A DNA stretch of 26,918 nucleotides from positions 1 to 26,918 of IMG/VR virus record IMGVR_UViG_3300032241_000422. The stretch is one strand, 5' to 3'. The notes beneath the pieces were generated by a model that made no database searches, was not told where the DNA came from, and worked only from the letters and a program-made list of their open reading frames with translations. The stretch comes from a virus. Made by a program: the position numbers and the translations under genes. Numbering within the stretch: the stretch's first letter is position 1; the number at the start of each line of letters is the position of its first letter. Shown here in pieces: positions 1 through 22,223 of this stretch.

Positions 1-987
1 ATCAACGGCGACTGCCTGGAAGTGATGCGAAGCTTCCCCGACAGCTCCGTTGATGCCATCGTGACGGACCCACCCTATTTCCGGGTGAAGGGCGAGGCAT
101 GGGATCGGCAGTGGGATGACGCCGATGAGTTCATCGCCTGGATCGGCAAGTTGTGCGAGCAGTGGCACCGGATCCTGAAGCCGAACGGCAGCCTGTACGT
201 CTGGGCATCGCCCAAGATGGCCGCGCGCGTTGAGGTTGAGATCGGTCGGCGGTTTGCGGTGCTCAACCGGATCCGCTGGGTGAAGTCCGCAGGCTGGCAC
301 CAAAAGACCGAGAAGGAAGCACTGCGTTCCTTTCTCTCACCGTGGGAGGAATGCATTTTCGCGGAGCATTTCGGAGAAGACGGTTACGCAACTCAATCAC
401 AATGCCTGGTCAGAGAGGTTTTTCAAATAGGACCACTAAGCGAATCTCTTGGTATTACGCGCTCTCAAATCGCAAGCCTGATTGCTGCTGATTACAAAAA
501 CATCGAAAGCGCCAAGGCGCAGGCGTCCAACTGGATCCTTGGCAAGAACATCCCCAACCCCTCAGACTTTGCTCGCCTCAAAACAGTGTTGCCCATTGTT
601 GGCGAGTACGAGGATCTTCGCCAGGAGTTTGAAGATCTGCGCCGCCCGTTTTCGGTGACGCCTGATGTGCCTTGGCATGACGTGTGGGACTTCCCCACCG
701 TCAAGGCGTACCCCGGCAAACACCCATGCGAGAAACCGGTGGCGATGCTCCAGCACATCATCCGCAGCAGCACGCGACCTGGCGCGGTGGTGCTCGATTG
801 CTTCATGGGATCGGGTGCCACTGGTGAAGCGTGCCAGCTTGAAGGGCGCGAGTTTATCGGCATCGAATTGGATGCTCGCTATTTCGCTTCAGCTCAGCAA
901 CGTTTGACCAGTACTCAGCCTCAGCTGCAATTAGTCGCAGGTAATTTCCGGGACCCCGAATTAGCTGATTTAGGCGAGGTTGCGTGA
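1..987 (+). CDS. DNA methyltransferase (N6-adenine or N4-cytosine type), 5' end missing
   Basis: This is an S-adenosylmethionine-dependent DNA amino-methyltransferase. The open frame runs in from the first base, and the residues before the first internal GTG (INGDCLE) already match the family's conserved N-terminus, so the true start lies outside the window. In window numbering the catalytic motif DPPY is at residues 23-26 and the AdoMet-binding motif FMGSG starts near residue 268, followed by FIGIELD. This order (catalytic motif first) is that of the beta group. Between them, at about residues 140-200, lies an insert resembling a helix-turn-helix (LGITRSQIASLI, then SNWILGKNIPNP). Similar inserts are known to me in other phage methylases, where they fall in the target-recognition part. 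No restriction partner is visible. In a phage it most likely protects DNA from host restriction or alters regulation. Target sequence cannot be predicted. Confidence 0.93.
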   Translation: MNGDCLEVMRSFPDSSVDAIVTDPPYFRVKGEAWDRQWDDADEFIAWIGKLCEQWHRILKPNGSLYVWASPKMAARVEVEIGRRFAVLNRIRWVKSAGWHQKTEKEALRSFLSPWEECIFAEHFGEDGYATQSQCLVREVFQIGPLSESLGITRSQIASLIAADYKNIESAKAQASNWILGKNIPNPSDFARLKTVLPIVGEYEDLRQEFEDLRRPFSVTPDVPWHDVWDFPTVKAYPGKHPCEKPVAMLQHIIRSSTRPGAVVLDCFMGSGATGEACQLEGREFIGIELDARYFASAQQRLTSTQPQLQLVAGNFRDPELADLGEVA

Positions 988-1204: not shown

Positions 1205-1208
1205 ATGG
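1187..1208 (+). repeat. 11-bp imperfect tandem repeat across the integrase start codon
   Basis: Two adjacent copies, TGCGCGAACGG (1187-1197) and TGCGCGAATGG (1198-1208), match at 10 of 11 positions. The second contains the ATG proposed as the integrase start. The 11-bp spacing is about one helical turn. It could be a binding site for integrase or a regulator, or it could be chance in GC-rich sequence. Confidence 0.5.
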
Positions 1209-2299
1209 CGCGACGATGGATTCCCGACAAGCGTGTCCCTGGCCTCGGCGTGCTGGAGCTGCCCAGTGGCGTGGCCACTTGGTACGTACGCTTTCGCGTA
1301 CCAGGCGGCCGGCAAATTACGCATCGGATCGGCCGCATTTCGATCATCAACGCCAGCATCGCCCGCGAAATGGCAATGCAGATACTCGCTTCCTCAATAA
1401 GAGGCGAATACAAGGCACGCAACTACAAGGCCATCACCATGGCCAGCTTGCTTGAACGCATCAAACGTGAGCATTGGCCGCGGCTGCGCCTCAACACCCA
1501 GCGCCAGCAAGAGCTGCTCTGGCGGTTGCATCTGTTGCCGGCCATTGGCCGTACAAAGGTTGCGTCGTTGACATCCGACGACGTTGCCCGCTGGTTTCAT
1601 CAGGCCAGCGTCAAACCGATCACAGCCAACCGTGCGCTGGAGGTGCTGAGCAAGGCAATGAACCTAGCCGAGCTGTGGAACCTACGCCCGCTGCATTCCA
1701 ACCCATGCCGGCACATCACCGCCAACCGCGAGCGCAAGCGGCGCCGCTACCTCAGCCGTGATGAGCTGGCCAGGTTGCTAGCGGCACTTGACCAGAGTTC
1801 CGCGGTATTCGCGCAGATGATCCGCCTGTTGCTGTTGACCGGGTGCCGTGTGGGCGAGATTCAACGTGCCAGGTGGGATTGGGTCAACCTGGATGCCCGC
1901 ATTCTGGTGATACCGGCCGCAGAACATAAAACAGGTGGCGATGGCAATGACCGCGTGGTGCATCTGCCTCCTGCCGCGGTTGAAATCCTACGCCAGCTCC
2001 GTCAACGCACGAATGGGCGCTGGGTCATCCCAGGCCGCGGCGATGCCCCATTGATGTCCTACAGCAAGCCGTGGGCAAGGCTGCTGGAGCGTGCTGGGAT
2101 ATCAGGGCTGCGCGTACACGATTTGAGGCATTCGCACGCATCCTTTGCACTAGAGGCTGGCCTGACGTTGGCGCAGATTGGCGAACTGTTGGGTCATCGC
2201 AGCACTCAGACCACGCAGCGCTACGCGCACCTCAGCCATGAGGCTGCCGCGACCAACGTGGCCAAGGTGGCGGCGTTGCTTAGCCCTTTGAAGCCGTGA
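1205..2299 (+). CDS. int: Tyrosine recombinase (phage integrase)
   Basis: This 364-aa site-specific recombinase would integrate the phage into, and with a helper excise it from, the host chromosome. The catalytic set appears complete: Arg215 in TGCRVGEI, Lys242 in HKTGG, His305 and Arg308 in HDLRHSHAS, His331 in LLGHRS and nucleophile Tyr340 in TQRYAHL. The N-terminal 70 residues look like an arm-DNA-binding region (WYVRFRVPGGRQITHRIGR), followed by a SAM-like core-binding domain at about 78-175 and the catalytic domain from about 180. No in-frame start codon was found in the codons checked just upstream of ATG 1205, and no clear Shine-Dalgarno sequence precedes it. The last 20 bases overlap the 3' end of the opposing dCTP deaminase gene. 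Its presence argues for a temperate phage or prophage. Confidence 0.96.
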   Translation: MARRWIPDKRVPGLGVLELPSGVATWYVRFRVPGGRQITHRIGRISIINASIAREMAMQILASSIRGEYKARNYKAITMASLLERIKREHWPRLRLNTQRQQELLWRLHLLPAIGRTKVASLTSDDVARWFHQASVKPITANRALEVLSKAMNLAELWNLRPLHSNPCRHITANRERKRRRYLSRDELARLLAALDQSSAVFAQMIRLLLLTGCRVGEIQRARWDWVNLDARILVIPAAEHKTGGDGNDRVVHLPPAAVEILRQLRQRTNGRWVIPGRGDAPLMSYSKPWARLLERAGISGLRVHDLRHSHASFALEAGLTLAQIGELLGHRSTQTTQRYAHLSHEAAATNVAKVAALLSPLKP

Positions 2300-2804: not shown

Positions 2805-3455
2805 TCAAGCCAGCCAGAGCTTACCCTCTTCTGTGCGTCGACGTGCAAGGCCTTTCTCAACCGCACTTCCCGGGTCGCGGTAAAGGTACATGGCGCTAGG
2901 CACATCTGGCCAGCGCTTTTCCTTCAGCGCGCGGCTGATGGTGCCGAACCCATCCGCCCCATAAAACCCAGCGCCTAGGTTGTAGGCAAAGGATGTCAAC
3001 GCCCCGCGCTGGTTGTCGTTCATTTCGCTCCAGTAAGGAATCGAACGAGCAAGACAGGCAAACGTGTACTGGACTTCACCCATCAAATACTGATCCGCTT
3101 CGGCCTGGCTGATGTGATCGCCATAGGCGACGGCGCGACCGTTGGGATAGCGAATCGTCCCCCAGCCAATCGTGGGCACACCACAGCCATCGTTGTAAGC
3201 CTGCAAATAGCAGCCCTCAAACTCTTTAATAATTTTCATTGCGCAGTCGGGCACCTCGGCCAATTCATGCGCCGGAATTGGGGTTGGCTTTGGCGTCACC
3301 GTTGCCGACCAGGTGTGGTACCACTCAGCTGCTCGGTCGAGCAAATGCGGTGCGTGCGCCAGGATTTCTTCTTCCAGCTGCTCAATGGCTGCGTTTTGGT
3401 GGGGCAGGCCTTTGTAGAAGGAGAAGAATGAACGAAGGTTCATTGGTTGGTCCAT
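2805..3455 (-). CDS. Endolysin, GH24 (T4 lysozyme-type) muramidase
   Basis: This 216-aa enzyme would cleave peptidoglycan glycan strands at lysis. The catalytic triad is present with exact T4-lysozyme spacing: Glu80 in EFEGCYLQAYND, Asp89 and Thr95 in PTIGWGT (offsets 9 and 15). No signal peptide or signal-anchor is evident, so release would need a holin. The first ~60 residues (FFSFYKGLPHQNAAIEQLEE) form a separate small segment like those I recall before lysozyme domains of cyanophages or cyanobacteria, followed by a Pro-rich linker (TPKPTPIPA). The start is uncertain. ATG 3455 gives the length above, while ATG 3443 (residue 5) overlaps the preceding gene's stop as ATGA, the arrangement common in this operon, and may be the real one. 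The dCTP deaminase gene follows after nine bases. Confidence 0.95.
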   Translation of the reverse strand: MDQPMNLRSFFSFYKGLPHQNAAIEQLEEEILAHAPHLLDRAAEWYHTWSATVTPKPTPIPAHELAEVPDCAMKIIKEFEGCYLQAYNDGCGVPTIGWGTIRYPNGRAVAYGDHISQAEADQYLMGEVQYTFACLARSIPYWSEMNDNQRGALTSFAYNLGAGFYGADGFGTISRALKEKRWPDVPSAMYLYRDPGSAVEKGLARRRTEEGKLWLA

Positions 3456-3867: not shown

Positions 3868-4107
3868 TTACCTGTGGTTTATTTCCAGTGCACGCACACG
3901 GTGTTCAAGGTCTTCCATTTGTGACTTGGTATCGGTACGCAATTCCTCCATTTGCTTCAGCAAGGTCTGAACGTTCGCATCCATGCGAGCGAACGAAACC
4001 TGCATATTGACCAGCAACGCCGTGATGGCGCAAAGGCCAAGGGCAAGCGCTTGCGGCAGCGAAGACGATAAGACGCTAGCGAGCGTATGCTGCTTGGGCT
4101 CGTCCAT
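3868..4107 (-). CDS. Holin-like single-span membrane protein with coiled-coil tail
   Basis: This 79-aa protein has a short polar N-terminus, one hydrophobic segment at about residues 17-38 (LPQALALGLCAITALLVNMQ) and a C-terminal heptad-like coiled coil (about 45-75, MEELRTDTKSQMEDLEHRVR) ending in charged residues. The size, single membrane span and position a few hundred bases before a GH24 endolysin that lacks an export signal fit a holin, which would form the membrane lesion that lets endolysin out. I do not recognise a specific holin family, and the long coiled coil would also fit an Rz-like spanin or another membrane anchor. It begins 11 bases after the preceding small gene's stop. AAGGG lies 14 bases or more upstream, which is weak. 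Confidence 0.8.
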   Translation of the reverse strand: MDEPKQHTLASVLSSSLPQALALGLCAITALLVNMQVSFARMDANVQTLLKQMEELRTDTKSQMEDLEHRVRALEINHR

Positions 4108-16079: not shown

Positions 16080-16511
16080 CTAGTTCACACTGGCGAGATT
16101 TGAGAGAGAAGTGCGATAACGGACGACGTAATCACACATGACGACGCCGGCCGGTTGGTCGGCTTCTATCAGTTGATAGTTTACCGAGGTTGGCTGGATA
16201 TCCATTGCGTAGCCGCCGAGCGTGATGTCGGCCATTACCTGTGAATGGAGCGACTGGATGGTGGCATCGGCCAACTGATCAGGTGCGGTGCCTCGAACAA
16301 TCACGGCAATGCGCACGGTCAAACTCCAGTCCAGCGTTGGAAGGCTTGTATTTTCTTGCGCTGTGTCGCTGATGGGTTCCACCACAATCGCGGGACTTTC
16401 CCCACGCGCCATGGCTTCCACACGGCTGCGATAAATTCGCGTGCCAACGCCGGACGTACCGGCAAGTGCCGTGACGATGTTGCTGAGAATGGATTCGCGG
16501 CGGGTCGTCAT
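16080..16511 (-). CDS. Tail terminator / minor tail protein (lambda gpU-like)
   Basis: This 143-aa protein most likely caps the tail tube and joins it to the head connector, or is the neighbouring gpZ-like joining protein. It begins MTTRRESILSNIVTALAG, then GTRIYRSRVEAMARGESPAI, LDWSLTVRIAVIVRG and ends YVVRYRTSLSNL; this alpha-beta pattern is that of siphophage tail terminators. The start chosen is ATG 16511, which overlaps the preceding stop as ATGA; the frame stays open to 16559 but those codons belong to the upstream gene. No membrane or signal segment is seen. Confidence 0.88.
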   Translation of the reverse strand: MTTRRESILSNIVTALAGTSGVGTRIYRSRVEAMARGESPAIVVEPISDTAQENTSLPTLDWSLTVRIAVIVRGTAPDQLADATIQSLHSQVMADITLGGYAMDIQPTSVNYQLIEADQPAGVVMCDYVVRYRTSLSNLASVN

Positions 16512-17320
16512 GCGGTTGCTCCAACGGCATCGATGGTGAGTGGGCTCATGTTGACCCAAGCGGAGCCGGTGTAACCCTCAAAGCAGCCGCGATCGGTGTT
16601 GTATCGAATCATGCCCTGCACCGCTGTTGGGCGCTGGGCAGTGGTGCCCACGGGCACCTGGATCGTGCCGGTGCTGTTAAAGGTCGTGTTGCCCGAAGCG
16701 TCAGTGGTGACGCGGATGGTGTTGTTGGTGGAAATAGTAAAAGGCTTGTTATCCCGAACCGTCAAAAATGCACTGCTAGAACCGATGCCAAGGACAATCC
16801 CTGTGCTGTCAAGGGCGTTGGAAGGAAGGGCAATCGAAAGGCATGTCTGCGTCCCAGAGGTTGCCTGCAGCCCGAGCATGTACCCAACGCTTGACCCATA
16901 GGTTTGCGTCGGGTTGTTTCCAACCAGCAAGGAACCGCTGCTTGTTCCAAACGTGGCGGCGCCTGTAAATGATGCGGCTGCACCATTGAGCGTACCGGTC
17001 AGCGTCGGCGAAGCCGAAAGCACCACGCTGCCCGTGCCAGTGCTGCTGGTGACGCCTGTGCCACCGTTAGCAACCGCAAGCGTGCCGGCCAAGGTGATTG
17101 CGCCTGTCGTGGCTGACGATGGCGTCAGGCCAGTCGTGCCGCCTGAAAAGCTTGAAACGGCCGCACCACCCAATTGCACCACCGAAGCGGTGCCGCTGTT
17201 CATGCAGCCGTAGAGCTTGCCGTCGTAAGTGTTGAATGCCAGCTCGCCCACGGACATTTGCCCCGTGGTCGGAACTTTGCCTGGGGTGCTGGAGCGCTTG
17301 AGAAGAACGGTGTTTGCCAT
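16508..17320 (-). CDS. Fibre-like structural protein with Mtd-N-like N-terminus (paralogue 1)
   Basis: This 270-aa protein begins NTVLLKRSSTPGKVPTTGQM then SVGELAFNTYDGKLYG, a short virion-attachment domain resembling the N-terminal domain of major tropism determinant proteins and many cyanophage structural proteins. A low-charge Ser/Thr/Gly/Ala body follows (VANGGTGVTSSTGTGSVVLS, LTGTLNGAAASFTGA), typical of phage fibres. The C-terminus contains VPVGTTAQRPTAVQGMIRYN and CFEGYTGSAWVNM, a common end module. It has a fair AGGA ribosome-binding site eight bases before ATG 17320. A fibre gene between connector and tail terminator is not the lambda arrangement; it may encode a decoration or whisker near the neck. 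The N-terminus is homologous in pattern to the next gene. Confidence 0.82.
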   Translation of the reverse strand: MANTVLLKRSSTPGKVPTTGQMSVGELAFNTYDGKLYGCMNSGTASVVQLGGAAVSSFSGGTTGLTPSSATTGAITLAGTLAVANGGTGVTSSTGTGSVVLSASPTLTGTLNGAAASFTGAATFGTSSGSLLVGNNPTQTYGSSVGYMLGLQATSGTQTCLSIALPSNALDSTGIVLGIGSSSAFLTVRDNKPFTISTNNTIRVTTDASGNTTFNSTGTIQVPVGTTAQRPTAVQGMIRYNTDRGCFEGYTGSAWVNMSPLTIDAVGATA

Positions 17321-17363
17321 TTGGCGGTCCTGAGATGGCTATGTAGCCGGACGTAACGAAGGC

Positions 17364-18551
17364 TCAGAACGAGCCGCCGTCGATGGTTGCGGAATCGTTC
17401 AGCAAGGTGCCCGAGGTTGGCAGTGTCACGCTGGTGGTGCCCGAAGCGGTAAAGGTGACGTTGTAAGCGCCGCTGAATGCAACGCTGCCACCCATGGTCA
17501 GGGTGCTAGATCCGTTGTTGACGCCGGTGCCACCGTAGGTGGCGCCAACCACTGAACCCTGCCAGGTGCCGGTGCTGATTGTCCCAACGGTGACGATGCT
17601 GCTCTGGCCGGCATAGGAACCGCTGATGCTCAGCGTGTTGCCCGATTTAGAAAGGCCAGTGCCGGCGGTGATTTCACCAGCGCCGGTGAATTGCGTGAAC
17701 GCAATGCTGGTGGTGCCCAGCGTGATGGTGCCGCTGGTGCTACATACCCAACCCGTCGAAGCGTTGGTGGTGCCTTCCTCAATAAAGGTGAACAGGCCGG
17801 GGGTAAATTCACCGCCAGGGCTGTTGTCGGCATCGGTGGACCGACTCCAGGCACCCGCAGCGACCACGTAGATGCCGTTTTGACTGGCGGTGCTTTGACC
17901 AGCCACCAGCACGCGATCACCAGCCACCAAAGCCACGCCGTCGATTGTTTGCGTGTTGCTCAGCGTGATGTTGCTGGTCGCAATGGCACGACAGCTGTTT
18001 TTGACATCGAGGCCGGTCTTGACGGCATCGACGTAGTTCTTGGTTGCTGCATCCTGCGCGTTGACCGGATCAGCAACGTTGATGATCGACTGGCTGTTAA
18101 AGGACACCGAAGCCGTCGGCGCCGCCATTTGATCCAGGCGGCTGGTGCGGACCTGGGTGTCAAAGTTGCTGATGTAGCTGGCTGTCAGCGTCGGAATATC
18201 CGTGGCGCTCAGCGTCGTGCCAGAAGTGACCCGGCCTTTGGAATCGGTCGTGACCTTGGTGTAGGTGCCAGACGTGCCAACGCTTGGCAGCGTCAGCGTC
18301 GAACCGGAAAGGTCAACGGTGCCGGTAAAAGTTTTATTGCCGCTGATTGTCTGGGTGGTGCCAAGCGTTGCAAACTGCCCAGGACCGCCAATGGCAAGGA
18401 TTGTTGTGGCGCTACCGCCAGTGCCGCCGGTGCCGACGCCGTAATAAAGGGTCGAATCAACTTCGTTAAAAGCCAATTCGGCGTTTGCCAGTGAGCTGGG
18501 GGCACCCGGTGAACCGCTAGCGCGCCGTTTAATGCGGACCGTGTTGCTCAT
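17364..18551 (-). CDS. Fibre-like structural protein with Mtd-N-like N-terminus (paralogue 2)
   Basis: This 395-aa protein starts NTVRIKRRASGSPGAPSSLA and ELAFNEVDSTLYYG, the same attachment domain as the gene downstream. A shaft follows (SGNKTFTGTVDLSGSTLTLP; TTDSKGRVTSG), then NAQDAATKNYVD at about 163-174 and a domain with TIDGVALVAGDRVLVAGQ and NGIYVVAAGAWSRSTDAD (about 205-240), a module common in phage tail fibres. The end is TLPTSGTLLNDSATIDGGSF. It would form a surface fibre or side appendage. Its ATG 18551 overlaps the upstream TAA by one base (TAATG), and a 43-base gap follows before the next fibre gene, the largest inside this cassette. Confidence 0.85.
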   Translation of the reverse strand: MSNTVRIKRRASGSPGAPSSLANAELAFNEVDSTLYYGVGTGGTGGSATTILAIGGPGQFATLGTTQTISGNKTFTGTVDLSGSTLTLPSVGTSGTYTKVTTDSKGRVTSGTTLSATDIPTLTASYISNFDTQVRTSRLDQMAAPTASVSFNSQSIINVADPVNAQDAATKNYVDAVKTGLDVKNSCRAIATSNITLSNTQTIDGVALVAGDRVLVAGQSTASQNGIYVVAAGAWSRSTDADNSPGGEFTPGLFTFIEEGTTNASTGWVCSTSGTITLGTTSIAFTQFTGAGEITAGTGLSKSGNTLSISGSYAGQSSIVTVGTISTGTWQGSVVGATYGGTGVNNGSSTLTMGGSVAFSGAYNVTFTASGTTSVTLPTSGTLLNDSATIDGGSF

Positions 18552-18814
18552 TAGAAGTTGCCCCCGTCAGTCAGCGACAGAATGGTGTTGGTGCCGTCCG
18601 CCTTAAATTTAGCGCTGGAGGCGTTGTAGAAGACGACGGCCTGGTCGGTGCGATTGGTCACATCAACGTCATGCAATGCCGCAAAGGTGTTGATGCCCAC
18701 GCTGCTATCGACGTAGCTCTTGGTGGCCGCATCAGTGTCCTGCGTTGGTGTGGCTAGGCCTGTGACCTTGCTGACGCCTTGCAGGTCAAGGTCTGTAAGG
18801 ACTTTCTTGCTCAT
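18551..18814 (-). CDS. Small fibre-like protein sharing modules with the next gene
   Basis: This 87-aa protein begins MSKKVLTDLDLQGVSKVTGL and carries DTDAATKSYVDSSVG, matching the DAATK(N/S)YVD element of the 395-aa fibre downstream, and ends SLTDGGNF against that protein's TIDGGSF. It therefore looks like a detached or minimal version of the fibre shaft base, or an accessory subunit assembling with it. The junctions on both sides are TAATG one-base overlaps in nearly identical sequence context, as though the unit had been duplicated. Alone it has no recognisable enzyme or binding motif, and function is inferred only from resemblance and position. Confidence 0.82.
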   Translation of the reverse strand: MSKKVLTDLDLQGVSKVTGLATPTQDTDAATKSYVDSSVGINTFAALHDVDVTNRTDQAVVFYNASSAKFKADGTNTILSLTDGGNF

Positions 18815-19317
18815 TAGAACAACCTCGCAATGCCGGCTGTAGCCACCGAGAACGTAACCACAGTCTGATTGATGGAAGGGTTGGTGACAGCAGCCTCCAC
18901 CTCGGCGCCGGTCGAATCGATGACCTCAACCGAAGGCTCATAGCCAAAGTTGTGGTCGATGACCCAGACAGTTGCCGGAGTGGGTTGCTCAAACACAAAC
19001 ACAAACGCACGCGGCTGACCGCCAGGCGCTGTGGCGTCGGGGTCCAGCTTGGTCAGCGTGATTTCGCAGAAAGAGCCATCATCCAATTTGCGCACTTCGC
19101 GCACCTGATAATGAGCGCCAGCAATGGTGATGCCATCGCCGTAAAACAACCCGCCAAAATCAGCGTTCTTGCACGTCAGTGTGTAGTCCGTGCTGATCAC
19201 CATGCCATTGCCAAGCACTTGGCCGGGCATATCGAGAATTCCCACGCCCGTAATGGCGCCAGCCGTGCAGGTGACGCCAAAGTCGGCGAGAAACGTATCC
19301 AACGGTTCGTTCACCAT
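18814..19317 (-). CDS. Head-tail connector protein fused to a C-terminal fibre-type module
   Basis: This 167-aa protein has two parts. Residues 1-97 (FLADFGVTCTAGAITGVGIL, TLTCKNADFGGL, YQVREVRKLDDGSFCEITL) resemble small head-closure/connector proteins of the lambda gpFII kind, which prepare the filled head for tail docking. Residues about 104-167 (VWVIDHNFGYEPSVEVIDST through VVTFSVATAGIARLF) match a small beta module (W.I.H.LGY.P.V.V.D) that I know from the C-termini of fibre-like virion proteins. The connector part fits its place between capsid and tail genes. The extra module would project from the neck and is the likely link with the fibre cassette just downstream. It overlaps the DUF1003-like gene by seven bases. 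Confidence 0.82.
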   Translation of the reverse strand: MVNEPLDTFLADFGVTCTAGAITGVGILDMPGQVLGNGMVISTDYTLTCKNADFGGLFYGDGITIAGAHYQVREVRKLDDGSFCEITLTKLDPDATAPGGQPRAFVFVFEQPTPATVWVIDHNFGYEPSVEVIDSTGAEVEAAVTNPSINQTVVTFSVATAGIARLF

Positions 19318-19676
19318 CTGCGGTGCCTCTCGATCTTCTCCAGGTGTTGATCTAGGTGCTCGGTGATGGCCATCAGGATCTTGTGGTCCTTTTGGTCGAT
19401 CTCAAGGTTTTCAATCGCGCGGGCGCGGTCGATTTCAGATTGACGGTTGGCTGAAATCAAAAGCATCGGCGCCGCGTATGCCGCTTGCAGGCTCAGGATC
19501 AGGTTGAGAAGAATGAACGGATAGGGATCTGGACGCTTGGCCGTTTGCATCGAGCAATTCAGGCAGATCCAAAACGTGATCACCACCGTTTGAATAATGA
19601 GAAACCGCCACGATCCAAGCGTGGCGCTGGCCTTATCAGCCAGGCGTTGCCCGAACGTAAGCGGTTTCTGTTCCAT
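19311..19676 (-). CDS. DUF1003-like two-span membrane protein
   Basis: This 121-aa protein matches the bacterial DUF1003 membrane family: a cytoplasmic start with LTFGQRLADKASATLGSW, a first membrane span (about 23-40, RFLIIQTVVITFWICLN), a short loop with the conserved DPYPFILLNL, a second span (about 53-74), and a charged coil-prone tail (NRQSEIDRARAIENLEIDQK). DUF1003 proteins are cellular inner-membrane proteins of unknown function; finding one in the middle of a phage structural operon is unusual. It starts one base after the preceding stop (TGAGATG) and overlaps the connector gene by seven bases, so it is part of the operon rather than a recent isolated insertion. It might act at the host membrane during infection. 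Confidence 0.88.
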   Translation of the reverse strand: MEQKPLTFGQRLADKASATLGSWRFLIIQTVVITFWICLNCSMQTAKRPDPYPFILLNLILSLQAAYAAPMLLISANRQSEIDRARAIENLEIDQKDHKILMAITEHLDQHLEKIERHRRW

Positions 19677-19677
19677 C

Positions 19678-19851
19678 TCAGGCGGCAGGCGCGGCTGCTT
19701 TTTTGGTTGCAGGTTTAGGTGCCTCGACAGGTTCGACCTGATGAGCCACTAGTTCGTGTTGCTCAGGGCTCAGCTCCAGCTCAGCGCCGGGACCGTGCAC
19801 CTCATTGCCATGGCGAACGTGGAAATGTTCGCGGACTTTGTATTTAGCCAT
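19678..19851 (-). CDS. 57-aa small protein after the capsid gene
   Basis: The frame opens at ATG 19851 just beyond the terminator hairpin and ends at TGA 19678-19680. The product starts MAKYKVREHFHVRHGNEVHG, then PGAELELSPEQHELVAHQVE, with a Pro/Ala/Lys-rich tail (PKPATKKAAAPAA). Small proteins with this K.KV...F....G...GPGdE.ELs..Q.. pattern are common next to capsid genes in many phages; their role is unknown, possibly a head accessory. No ribosome-binding site is evident because the poly-U tract of the terminator lies immediately before the start, so translation may be weak or depend on read-through. The gene is below common length cut-offs. Confidence 0.78.
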   Translation of the reverse strand: MAKYKVREHFHVRHGNEVHGPGAELELSPEQHELVAHQVEPVEAPKPATKKAAAPAA

Positions 19852-19856
19852 GTGTG

Positions 19857-19882
19857 AAAAAAGGGGGCGGTTGCCCGCCCCC
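19857..19882 (-). terminator. Intrinsic terminator after the capsid gene
   Basis: On the minus strand GGGGGCGG (19882-19875) pairs perfectly with CCGCCCCC (19870-19863) around a GCAA loop (a GNRA tetraloop), followed by six U residues (19862-19857). This is a strong Rho-independent terminator placed nine bases beyond the capsid stop. Because further genes of the same operon follow, it is probably a partial terminator that lowers expression of downstream genes relative to capsid, or acts as an mRNA 3'-end stabiliser. Confidence 0.9.
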
Positions 19883-19890
19883 GGCTCCTA

Positions 19891-21843
19891 TCAAGCGGCG
19901 ATGTCGGTGATGGCCGCGAAGGAAGCGGCGTGACGGACGGCAATGTCCACAGTCTGGAGGCTGCGGATATTGATCGAACCGGAGTTGTAACCGCTGCCAT
20001 AGGGGTTGGGCAGGATCTCGAGGGCGCCCCACATGCCGATGACCAGATCGGAGAAGTTACCGAAGAGGAGAGCGGACAGGTTGGTGCCAGTGCCTTTGGA
20101 CAGGTTGAAAGGAACCTGGTTGGTGCGAGCAACGCTGTAGCCCGAGATGCTGCCGGGGGTGGCAAGCGCGGTGGTGGCGTCGGTGTTGTTGCTCCACAGG
20201 TAACCGCCGTACTGATCTTTCAGCTGCTTGAGCTGAGCGATCACGCGAGCGTTGGTCATGTAGTAGAGCGAACCTTCCAGGGCGTTGGCGATGTCCAGTT
20301 TGGATTCAAGCTGGATCAGCTGGTCAAGGCCGGAGGGAGAAACGGAAGCCGAGCCGTTTGCAAAGGAACCACCGTTGGTGCCCATGCTCACGGTGCCGAT
20401 ACCGGACTGGTTCAGGATGCCGGTGGGTTCACCGTTAGCGCCAGCGCCGTAAATCGAAGCTTTGTCGATAGCAAGAGCCATCACCTTGGCGAGATCGTTG
20501 CGAACAACCATCTCGATGTCCGGTGTGGACTGTTGCAGCATCAGGCGACTGTACTGAGAAATGGCGCCGACTTGTTTCGGGCTCATGGTCACCTGGTCAA
20601 AGGTCACCTCGGCCTCGGTCAGGGTTTCAGCCTCATTCACCCAGTAGGTCTGAGTGGCAGAGGTCTGACGAGGAATGGCGATGTTGCCAACCAGGCCGGT
20701 CAGCATGGTGGGACCCAGCTGCATGATCATCGCTTTCGCCCGCAACACTTCAATGAAGCTGCCGGCAAGCAAATTTGTAGCAACCAGGCTGCCGCCAGTA
20801 GCAGAAGCGCCTACGGCATAAGGAGCGCGAAGGTTGAGGGGCATGAAGAAGCCCTCGGTTTCGCGGCCGGACTGGCGAGCCAGCTCGGCGGAAACTTCAC
20901 GCTCCAGGCCAGCGTTGTTCCATTTGCCGGAAGCAGCAGCGCGGATGGCTTTCACCACGCTGTACTGAGACATGTCACGCTCGGACATGTCCACGGTGCC
21001 GGTGCCTTTATCGGCGATCGGCTCCTGCTTGGCGCCCAGCTTCTCAAGAAAAGCGGAGCGAGCTTCGTCAAGGCTCTTGCCGCCGTCGATCAGCTGGCGA
21101 GCCATGTCGGCCTGGTTGAACTTGTCACCCAGCTTGGAGATGCTGGCAATACGAGCACGCTCAGCGGCAACCGCCTCTGAACGCACTTCGTCAAAGTTGA
21201 CGGAAGTGTTTTCCATTGTGAGATCCCTAGATTCGGGGGTTGGTGTAGAGGCGTGTTGCGCCGGTTCCACTGGTTCAGGAGATGAAACAGTGACTTCATT
21301 ATCGCTAGTGGGCTCTTCACGGCCGATCCCAACAGTGGGGTCAGCCGGAATCGTCACTAGCGATATCTCGTAAGGCGCCCAGCGCGTCGCTGTGAACGTT
21401 GCGCTGTCGCCTTCAGCTCCATCGGACACCATGTTCATGACGCGGTAACCGAAGGACACGTTACGGAGCACGTTGTCGGCAACGTCCCCCATCACCTGCT
21501 GCGCTAACTCATTTTGTGAGAAGCGAGCGGTGACATAACCGCGGCCACCATCAATCCAAGCCCGCTCGACAACGCCGATGAGCTGGTTGGGGTCGTGGTT
21601 GTAGAGCAGCGGTGCCCCGTCATTAAGACGGGACAGATCCGCCGCCCCGGATTCATGACTCAAGACTTCCTGCCCGAACCAGCGCTCAACTGGATAGGTG
21701 CTGCTGAAAGGAAAGGTGATCGAGCGCTGCTCGCTATCGACAATCGGCGCTTCCATCAAAATGGAGCGCTGCATCTTGGGCAGCTTCAGGCGGGTTTCGC
21801 CTGCTCTGGCAAGTCCTGCGGGATTAGCCACGGCGGCGCTCAT
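19891..21843 (-). CDS. Fused prohead protease and HK97-type major capsid protein
   Basis: This 650-aa polyprotein joins a maturation protease with the capsid subunit. The N-terminal ~175 residues are an HK97-like prohead protease with probable catalytic His83 (LLYNHDPNQLIG), Ser130 (LRNVSFGYRV) and nearby Glu159 (YEISLVTIPA). Residues 180-209 are a disordered Pro/Ser/Glu linker. From about 215 a helical, scaffold-like delta region begins (VNFDEVRSEAVAAERARIAS), and from about 330 the HK97-fold capsid (ASIYGAGANGEPTGIL, NIRSLQTVDIAVRHAASFAA). The protease presumably cuts away itself and the delta region. An internal ATG at 21216 could also yield capsid precursor alone. The start overlaps the upstream stop (ATGA) and a terminator follows the stop. 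Confidence 0.95.
   Translation of the reverse strand: MSAAVANPAGLARAGETRLKLPKMQRSILMEAPIVDSEQRSITFPFSSTYPVERWFGQEVLSHESGAADLSRLNDGAPLLYNHDPNQLIGVVERAWIDGGRGYVTARFSQNELAQQVMGDVADNVLRNVSFGYRVMNMVSDGAEGDSATFTATRWAPYEISLVTIPADPTVGIGREEPTSDNEVTVSSPEPVEPAQHASTPTPESRDLTMENTSVNFDEVRSEAVAAERARIASISKLGDKFNQADMARQLIDGGKSLDEARSAFLEKLGAKQEPIADKGTGTVDMSERDMSQYSVVKAIRAAASGKWNNAGLEREVSAELARQSGRETEGFFMPLNLRAPYAVGASATGGSLVATNLLAGSFIEVLRAKAMIMQLGPTMLTGLVGNIAIPRQTSATQTYWVNEAETLTEAEVTFDQVTMSPKQVGAISQYSRLMLQQSTPDIEMVVRNDLAKVMALAIDKASIYGAGANGEPTGILNQSGIGTVSMGTNGGSFANGSASVSPSGLDQLIQLESKLDIANALEGSLYYMTNARVIAQLKQLKDQYGGYLWSNNTDATTALATPGSISGYSVARTNQVPFNLSKGTGTNLSALLFGNFSDLVIGMWGALEILPNPYGSGYNSGSINIRSLQTVDIAVRHAASFAAITDIAA
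21214..21228 (-). promoter_or_regulatory. Possible internal ribosome-binding site and start for capsid precursor
   Basis: Inside the fused gene, AGGGA (21228-21224) lies seven bases before an in-frame ATG (21216-21214, Met210) located exactly between the disordered linker and the scaffold-like delta region. Starting here would give a 441-aa capsid precursor without protease. Lambda makes its scaffold from an in-frame internal start of its protease gene, so the principle is known; use of this site is inferred from sequence only. Confidence 0.5.
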
Positions 21844-22223
21844 TTCAGGAACCTCAGCTTGTAGATGGTGGAATCAAACAACTGCGCGATCTCATCGCAG
21901 AGATTTTGCAGCTCGGAATCTGAGCCAATGTTAGCCCTGGCGCCTTTGAAATAATCCGACAGGATCGACACGTACTCCAACGGCGTGCCGTCGTAGGGCA
22001 GGTAACCCTCGGGGTAGTTGGTCACGATGCCGTACTTGCCCTGGTAGGCCTCGATCAGCGAGTCGGTGAGGTCAGGCATGTTCTCGTAAAAGTTTTGCAG
22101 AGCCTTGTGCTCGCTGAAGCTCTTGGTCTGCAAATGCAAGATGTGCCCGGTCGTCGCTGCATGAAGCAGCGTCATAAAGAAATGGGCAACGTCGTCGTTG
22201 GTGGATGTGTCGGGTGGGATCAT
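21840..22223 (-). CDS. DUF5856-like, helical phage protein
   Basis: This 127-aa all-helical protein shows HFFMTLLHAATTGHILHLQT then KSFSEHKALQNFYENMPDLT, AYQGKYGIV and STIYKLRFLK. The pattern is one I recall as DUF5856, best known from T4-like cyanophages and other myoviruses; His and Glu residues spaced along the helices suggest a ferritin/Dps-like four-helix bundle, but metal binding is inference. It is inserted between portal and capsid genes, where lambda has its C/Nu3 protease and scaffold genes, and overlaps both neighbours by four bases (ATGA), so it is co-translated with head proteins. A role in the head or as a cytoplasmic helper is equally possible. Confidence 0.82.
   Translation of the reverse strand: MIPPDTSTNDDVAHFFMTLLHAATTGHILHLQTKSFSEHKALQNFYENMPDLTDSLIEAYQGKYGIVTNYPEGYLPYDGTPLEYVSILSDYFKGARANIGSDSELQNLCDEIAQLFDSTIYKLRFLK

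Follow-up and report, generated by a model that had tools for sequence, protein, structure and literature searches.

DUF1003, which we take to be synonymous with COG4420, is a common, uncharacterized membrane protein family that is rarely mentioned in the literature searched. No role of DUF1003 in phages was found in that literature, which omits most subscription journals, and PHROGs returned no match to the phage protein analyzed here at an E value of ≤1, in agreement with the original prediction, which knew of no assigned phage role. Cellular members of the family have been addressed in two papers. The group B Streptococcus gene SAN_2180 is reported to be required for survival in host cells, a relative of SAN_2180 from L. 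lactis is described as linked to acid and multistress tolerance, and the S. mutans gene SMU_1307c is reported to acquire recurrent mutations in experimental evolution. These reports connect the family with stress, survival inside cells, and experimental evolution and not with lysis, which speaks against a lysis role.

The DUF1003 gene analyzed here lies in an IMG/VR record of 26,918 bases, referred to below as the window. Its product matches PF06210 at 103.2 bits (E value of 9.7e-30, residues 21 to 118; Pfam cutoff, 27.4), and a six-frame search was concordant with this call. Hydropathy analysis revealed two hydrophobic windows, the first beginning at residue 25 and the second at residue 56. 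The AlphaFold2 model (pLDDT of 92.3, pTM of 0.64) features helices at residues 8 to 20, 23 to 42, and 55 to 120; the predicted architecture is two membrane spans separated by a short loop and followed by a long cytosolic helix. Together, these results bear out the original prediction of a DUF1003-like two-span membrane protein, with the spans themselves being predicted, and the profile search that had been named as the check that could refute it returned the family well above the cutoff. In the structure alignment, for which 99 of 140 sequences were used, all ten columns that are invariant across the 99 sequences are present in the window protein. Holin families in Pfam and PHROGs gave no match, nor did a fold search of the PDB; a sequence search of the PDB found no convincing relative (best E value of 0.62) and no solved DUF1003 structure, and a viral structure library contained one unnamed match at an E value of ≤0.001.

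Features of the window referred to in the text, with the evidence for each assignment (positions are those of the window unless given as residues)
Feature	Position	Strand	Evidence or remark
Integrase	1205..2299	+	phrog_1, E value of 1.4e-69
Cyanophage-type endolysin	2805..3455	-	phrog_28234/phrog_7; ~16 kb from DUF1003
79-aa single-span protein near endolysin	3868..4107	-	Hydropathy peak at residue 21
Head closure/attachment protein Hc1, with C-terminal extension	18814..19317	-	Phage_attach PF05354, phrog_82
Two-span membrane protein DUF1003 (PF06210) of 121 aa, ATG start	19311..19676	-	Pfam, hydropathy, AlphaFold2, dN/dS
DUF1003, predicted N-terminal helix	Residues 8-20		Judged amphipathic
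DUF1003, predicted TM1	Residues ~24-42		
DUF1003, predicted loop	Residues 43-54		DPYPF motif
DUF1003, predicted TM2	Residues ~55-76		Continues as cytosolic helix to residue 120
57-aa gene between capsid and DUF1003	19678..19851	-	Weak DUF7210 match, below cutoff
Intrinsic-terminator-like hairpin and T run, just after capsid, upstream of 57-aa gene and DUF1003	19863..19882	-	Fold z of -3.7
Prohead protease fused to major capsid protein	19891..21843	-	PF04586 + PF05065, phrog_617
DUF5856/phrog_858 accessory gene, portal-capsid interval	21840..22223	-	Pfam, PHROGs

The gene is tightly packed between its neighbors: base 19677 alone separates the DUF1003 start codon from the stop codon of the 57-aa gene, and 7 bases (19311 to 19317) are shared with the Hc1 gene. 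The proposed coupling to both neighbors therefore stands, and so does the overall placement between capsid and connector genes, except that the immediate upstream neighbor is the 57-aa gene and not the capsid gene. The operon neighborhood also holds portal and terminase genes (Pfam, PHROGs), and relatives without DUF1003 have a similar small gene directly upstream of Hc1. As a side observation, several head-gene relatives also have the DUF5856/phrog_858 gene, and in further phages (loci L110, L115, L095, L104, and L112) it precedes DUF1003 either immediately or with one gene intervening. A specific link between the two genes was considered and found unsupported, given that DUF5856 occurs in 9 of 33 DUF1003 records (8 above the cutoff) versus 5 of 17 head-gene relatives. 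Outside the head genes, the integrase suggests that the window phage is probably temperate, and genes for a dCTP deaminase (2280-2795) and a DNA methyltransferase (22-987) are located near one end of the record.

To what extent DUF1003 belongs to this operon can be read from related records. IMG/VR contains 45 loci with a relative of the capsid protein and four with a relative of the closure protein; across 49 related records (L002 to L050), many of which are fragments, DUF1003 was detected in none at an E value of ≤10. Locus L047, whose closure protein is 86% identical to that of the window, has the capsid, small, and closure genes in direct succession, and in L064 a DUF1003 gene occupies the same position as in the window, with 79% amino acid identity and an identical one-base gap. 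Of the 44 loci examined (41 of the 45 capsid loci, plus L047, L064, and Synechococcus phage S-LBS1; the omitted L002, L027, L028, and L037 stop within or right at the capsid gene), 36 yielded an Hc1 gene, and DUF1003 accompanied it in L064 only. With L047 as the empty site and L064 as the same insertion, sequence comparison identifies DUF1003 as an optional accessory cassette of the head operon, and it is in this capacity that the claim of a gene embedded in the structural operon is confirmed. The dN/dS between the window and L064 copies is 0.158, indicating purifying selection (0.112 and 0.244 for the two downstream genes), and the base composition of DUF1003 is inside or near the operon range. 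Because the arrangement recurs in L064, an independent contig, and because of this dN/dS, the reading frame is a real gene and not a chance ORF. A separate observation concerns the C-terminal extension of the closure protein and the fiber-like genes that follow it (16508-18814 and the end of 18814-19317), which are present in L047 and absent from L064, so that the two accessory modules assort independently.

Where the gene came from was addressed by comparing phage and cellular relatives. An alignment query of IMG/VR returned 403 pattern-matched DUF1003 relatives, not all of them from phages, with top identities of 79, 61, 59, 55, and 53%; a scan of viral contigs with the window protein as single query found no relative, which reflects a limit of that method. 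The same alignment query of bacterial genomes yielded identities of 48 to 52% over at least ~100 residues and at most 58% over ~92 residues among the best 80 of 578 relatives (ranked by likeness to the window, as were the best 80 of 403 kept from the viral set), and plasmid copies did not exceed 52% (109 residues) or 56% (91 residues). A 151-sequence tree places the window protein inside a group of 21 phage sequences that contains none of the 79 host sequences (FastTree support of 0.745), and an interim maximum likelihood tree to which the six best cyanobacterial homologues from 388 genomes had been added keeps the same 21-member group, although this all-phage group is sampling dependent, with a 74-taxon tree placing other phage sequences inside it. 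In the latter tree, the window, L064, and a single tandem copy from each of L065 and L066 form a clade with aLRT/UFBoot support of 95.5/100; the next node has 79/95, support is weak beyond the five nearest sequences, and no host sequence is included until the group has grown to 31 taxa. Judged by eye, psbA- and psbD-like genes are present in L067 and a psbA-like gene in L126, and both are therefore cyanophages. Thus, as judged from these comparisons, the closest relatives of the window DUF1003 are phage genes, including those of T4-like and psbA/psbD-bearing cyanophages, and direct capture of the gene from a host by the window phage, as originally suggested, is for this reason unsupported. Two T4-like loci hold tandem, diverged DUF1003 copies (L065, 6774-7592; L066, 7570-8402), with a late-type promoter motif before each copy. 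Three records labeled as phage were set aside: MT835995.1 and two named “Acinetobacter phage MD-2021a,” the latter judged to be pieces of bacterial chromosome from the gene content of one of them. The gene content of both CAKLQH020000009.1 (L051) and MT835995.1 (L052) reads as that of a bacterial chromosome.

The 21 phage sequences share the membrane core with 39 host sequences and differ from them mainly in the cytosolic helix. Characteristic of the phage group are R86 (21/21), I88 (20/21), H98 (17/21), H107 (17/21), H111 (18/21), and F112 (18/21), the last of which is replaced by leucine in the window protein. Conversely, E100 and D90, each present in 39 of 39 hosts, are lost or nearly so in the phage group; together with N94, these host-type cytosolic residues are substituted in both the window and the phage group, which is a difference between subfamilies and not a criterion of the Pfam family.

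The timing of expression was approached through promoters. Of 14 DUF1003 genes from 12 T4-like loci, picked by eye from gene content, 8 have the T4-type late-promoter motif NATAAATA starting 29 to 32 nt ahead of an ATG, versus 33 of 234 other genes from the same loci (Fisher p = 4e-4), for which the motif was counted at 24 to 40 nt before the ATG and crude ORF calling admitted some false genes. The six other DUF1003 genes have no such motif at that spacing. Two loci were omitted from the test, namely, L082, a near copy of L075, and the T4-like L108, which is motif-less and would change the count to 8/15. In the gp46/deformylase loci, DUF1003 is on the opposite strand to those neighbors, the orientation that one would expect if a late gene had been placed among early ones. 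For the window itself, a simple scan restricted to σ70-like promoters found none in 18700-20100, and the strong hairpin after the capsid gene can also be folded at the same place in L064 and L047 despite their different sequences; it may reduce the expression of all genes past the capsid gene. Given this hairpin and the lack of a σ70-like promoter in the scan, DUF1003 most likely relies on late operon transcription, and its placement behind the 57-aa gene and directly before the gene for head closure likewise makes it most likely that it is transcribed with the late operon, probably at a reduced level past the hairpin.

As for the host, the window endolysin matches 78 phage records, of which 63 are Synechococcus phages (best match S-CBS3, 47.9%), and the nearest isolate by capsid is Synechococcus phage S-LBS1 (37%); because of these matches, the host is probably a picocyanobacterium. 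Searching 388 cyanobacterial genomes, we found DUF1003 matches at an E value of ≤1e-10 in 48, all of at least 2.7 Mb, and hosts with small genomes may therefore be without the gene. Capsid matches in 388 cyanobacterial genomes were confined to 12 and were too remote to call the host. No tRNA clue to the host was found in the window.

Some relatives place DUF1003 near lysis genes. It is preceded by a lysozyme and a YkuD gene in L065 and by an endolysin gene in L066, with Phage_lysozyme2 downstream in both; it lies near a lytic transglycosylase gene in L068, and in L069 it is preceded by a three-span holin. Across 50 DUF1003 records, a PF00959 lysozyme is found in 12, within 2.5 kb in 4 (1.6 expected; p = 0.05, a borderline value and not proof) and more than 5 kb away in 7; it is absent from the other 38. 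DUF1003 lies next to an endolysin gene in a minority of relatives but not in the window, where the endolysin is distant and has the 79-aa single-span protein as its own neighbor, so that, on present evidence, this endolysin does not require DUF1003 as a holin. The 79-aa protein, whose PHROG matches are all of unknown function and which has no Pfam match, is a possible holin of the window phage. The suggestion of a part in lysis timing thus draws weak support from the lysozyme neighbors of some relatives, but proximity is borderline and does not extend to the window.

The proposed search for DUF1003 in other phage head-tail operons was also productive, although its loci had been ordered by their similarity to the window gene and were no random sample. 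In L138/L139, from an unrelated phage lineage, the gene order is protease, capsid, adaptor Ad1, DUF1003 (Pfam, 133 bits), a 66-aa gene, Hc1, and Neck1, and the core of the DUF1003 protein is 79% identical to a Sinorhizobium plasmid copy. In the T4-like L108, DUF1003 follows a baseplate wedge gene and is 70 to 74% identical to Bacteroidota host copies, and in a 735-kb phage record it sits between tail-tube-like and baseplate-hub-like genes. This looks like repeated recruitment of DUF1003 from different bacteria into phage late modules. In cells, DUF1003 lies directly downstream of a soluble PRC-MgtE_N-CBS protein in all three actinobacterial loci examined (L052, 3730-6017; L237; L238), the partner having been identified by Pfam on L052 and as 46 to 47% relatives with CBS-domain annotation in L237 and L238; this suggests that cellular DUF1003 may act next to Mg2+ sensing, as a membrane partner. 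The actinobacterial partner itself has no match to the MgtE membrane domain and is possibly part of a split Mg2+-responsive system. No gene family occurred more than twice among 131 host neighbors of DUF1003, the one observation that bears on the membrane signaling suggested originally. A scan of DUF1003 neighbors covered 143 of 219, with repeats, short ORFs that are probably spurious, and loci of bacterial appearance omitted.

For the window gene, the family, the insertion relative to an empty site, the purifying selection, and the exclusively phage origin of the nearest relatives are established, and many relatives carry a late-type promoter. We tentatively favor, at less than even confidence, a late membrane-conditioning or lysis-timing protein over a superinfection exclusion factor or a virion part. 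Regarding its cellular location, topology, oligomerization, and effect on permeability or lysis, we infer the following: late in infection, the protein would form a two-helix hairpin in the cytoplasmic membrane of the host, with a long helix extending into the cytosol, assemble through its conserved membrane core, and alter or steady the ion permeability of the membrane until programmed lysis, an effect that would be holin- or antiholin-like but outside known holin families. The main rival, which we regard as unlikely, is that the phage protein performs the cellular job of DUF1003, balancing the membrane or Mg2+ as a late stress or ion homeostasis helper without a specific role in lysis. The actinobacterial PRC-MgtE_N-CBS loci, the reported need for SAN_2180 inside host cells and stress tolerance tied to its L. 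lactis relative, and the membrane core common to host and phage proteins all fit such a helper. However, the phage group has lost the host-invariant cytosolic residues E100 and D90, an unsystematic look noticed no MgtE-type partner beside phage DUF1003 genes, and the host neighbors themselves show no recurrent family.

The setting of the gene among head genes, where it overlaps Hc1, together with the different DUF1003 genes in the head, baseplate, or tail modules of L138/L139, L108, and the 735-kb phage, would suit a minor virion or assembly component, such as a membrane-interacting head-neck or DNA ejection protein. We consider this improbable, since the conservation with the head module expected of a virion protein is not observed (none of the 49 related records that share similar head genes, many of them fragments, and 1 of 36 Hc1 loci), which implies that the gene is dispensable for assembly, and elsewhere DUF1003 lies by gp46/deformylase or lysis genes, away from head genes. 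Somewhat less probable still is a role in immunity or, as had been raised initially, superinfection exclusion, exerted from the host membrane. Exclusion genes are normally early or prophage expressed, T4 Imm being an early gene, and although a small two-span membrane protein encoded by an optional cassette of an integrase-bearing phage would be in keeping with exclusion, the late-operon placement, the lack of a σ70-like promoter of its own in the simple scan, and the late promoters in relatives weaken this reading. That DUF1003 is a mere passenger, maintained by chance and without benefit in mosaic phage genomes, could account for its patchy distribution but is very improbable in view of its dN/dS, its conserved motifs, and the 403 pattern-matched relatives, even if these are not all phage.

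If a late membrane-conditioning or lysis-timing role, or one in membrane protection, were true, DUF1003 would represent a new kind of phage late gene. The family itself is already known; what is undescribed in the literature searched (most subscription journals aside) is a branch in phages that is marked by a distinct signature and a late context. It is tempting to speculate further, though we hold this to be doubtful, that phage DUF1003 proteins form an undescribed class of late membrane effectors, in which one lineage, its cytosolic helix rebuilt and rich in histidine, spread through mutually unrelated cyanophages as well as other phages, and other DUF1003 genes were taken from different bacterial groups into late head or baseplate modules, pointing to a shared late membrane-conditioning function. 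In any case, a phage-adapted branch with a late signature and the presence of DUF1003 in the late modules of unrelated phages offer a handle on the function of the family: the trimmed 121-aa phage version hints at which part of DUF1003 is indispensable, and phage infection provides a timed assay (lysis time, membrane potential).

Compared with described systems, cellular DUF1003 proteins share with the window protein the PF06210 match and the two-span core with its GSW-F, DPYPF, N-L, P, and N-R-D-R positions, but all host members fetched are longer (at least 129 aa, with a median of ~178 aa based on the longest ORF, which overstates length), and their cytosolic helix has diverged from that of the phage group, which typically has R86, H98, H107, H111, and F112. 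The nearest relatives, from T4-like cyanophages and other phages (L065 to L068, L073, L084, and L126, among others), carry the same cytosolic signature and in many cases late-type promoters, yet their DUF1003 genes lie beside lysozymes, psbA, or gp46/deformylase and sometimes occur as two tandem copies (L065, L066). S-LBS1 resembles the window in its terminase-to-capsid gene order and in the small gene after the capsid but has no DUF1003 by profile at that site and is absent from the seven phage-collection records with a DUF1003 match. T4 Imm-type exclusion proteins are likewise small phage membrane proteins, whereas the context of DUF1003 is late. Class II holins, finally, resemble the window protein in being small, two-span proteins with a charged tail that are probably expressed late; they differ from it in that it matches no holin family, is not encoded beside the endolysin, and has a tail that is long and helical.
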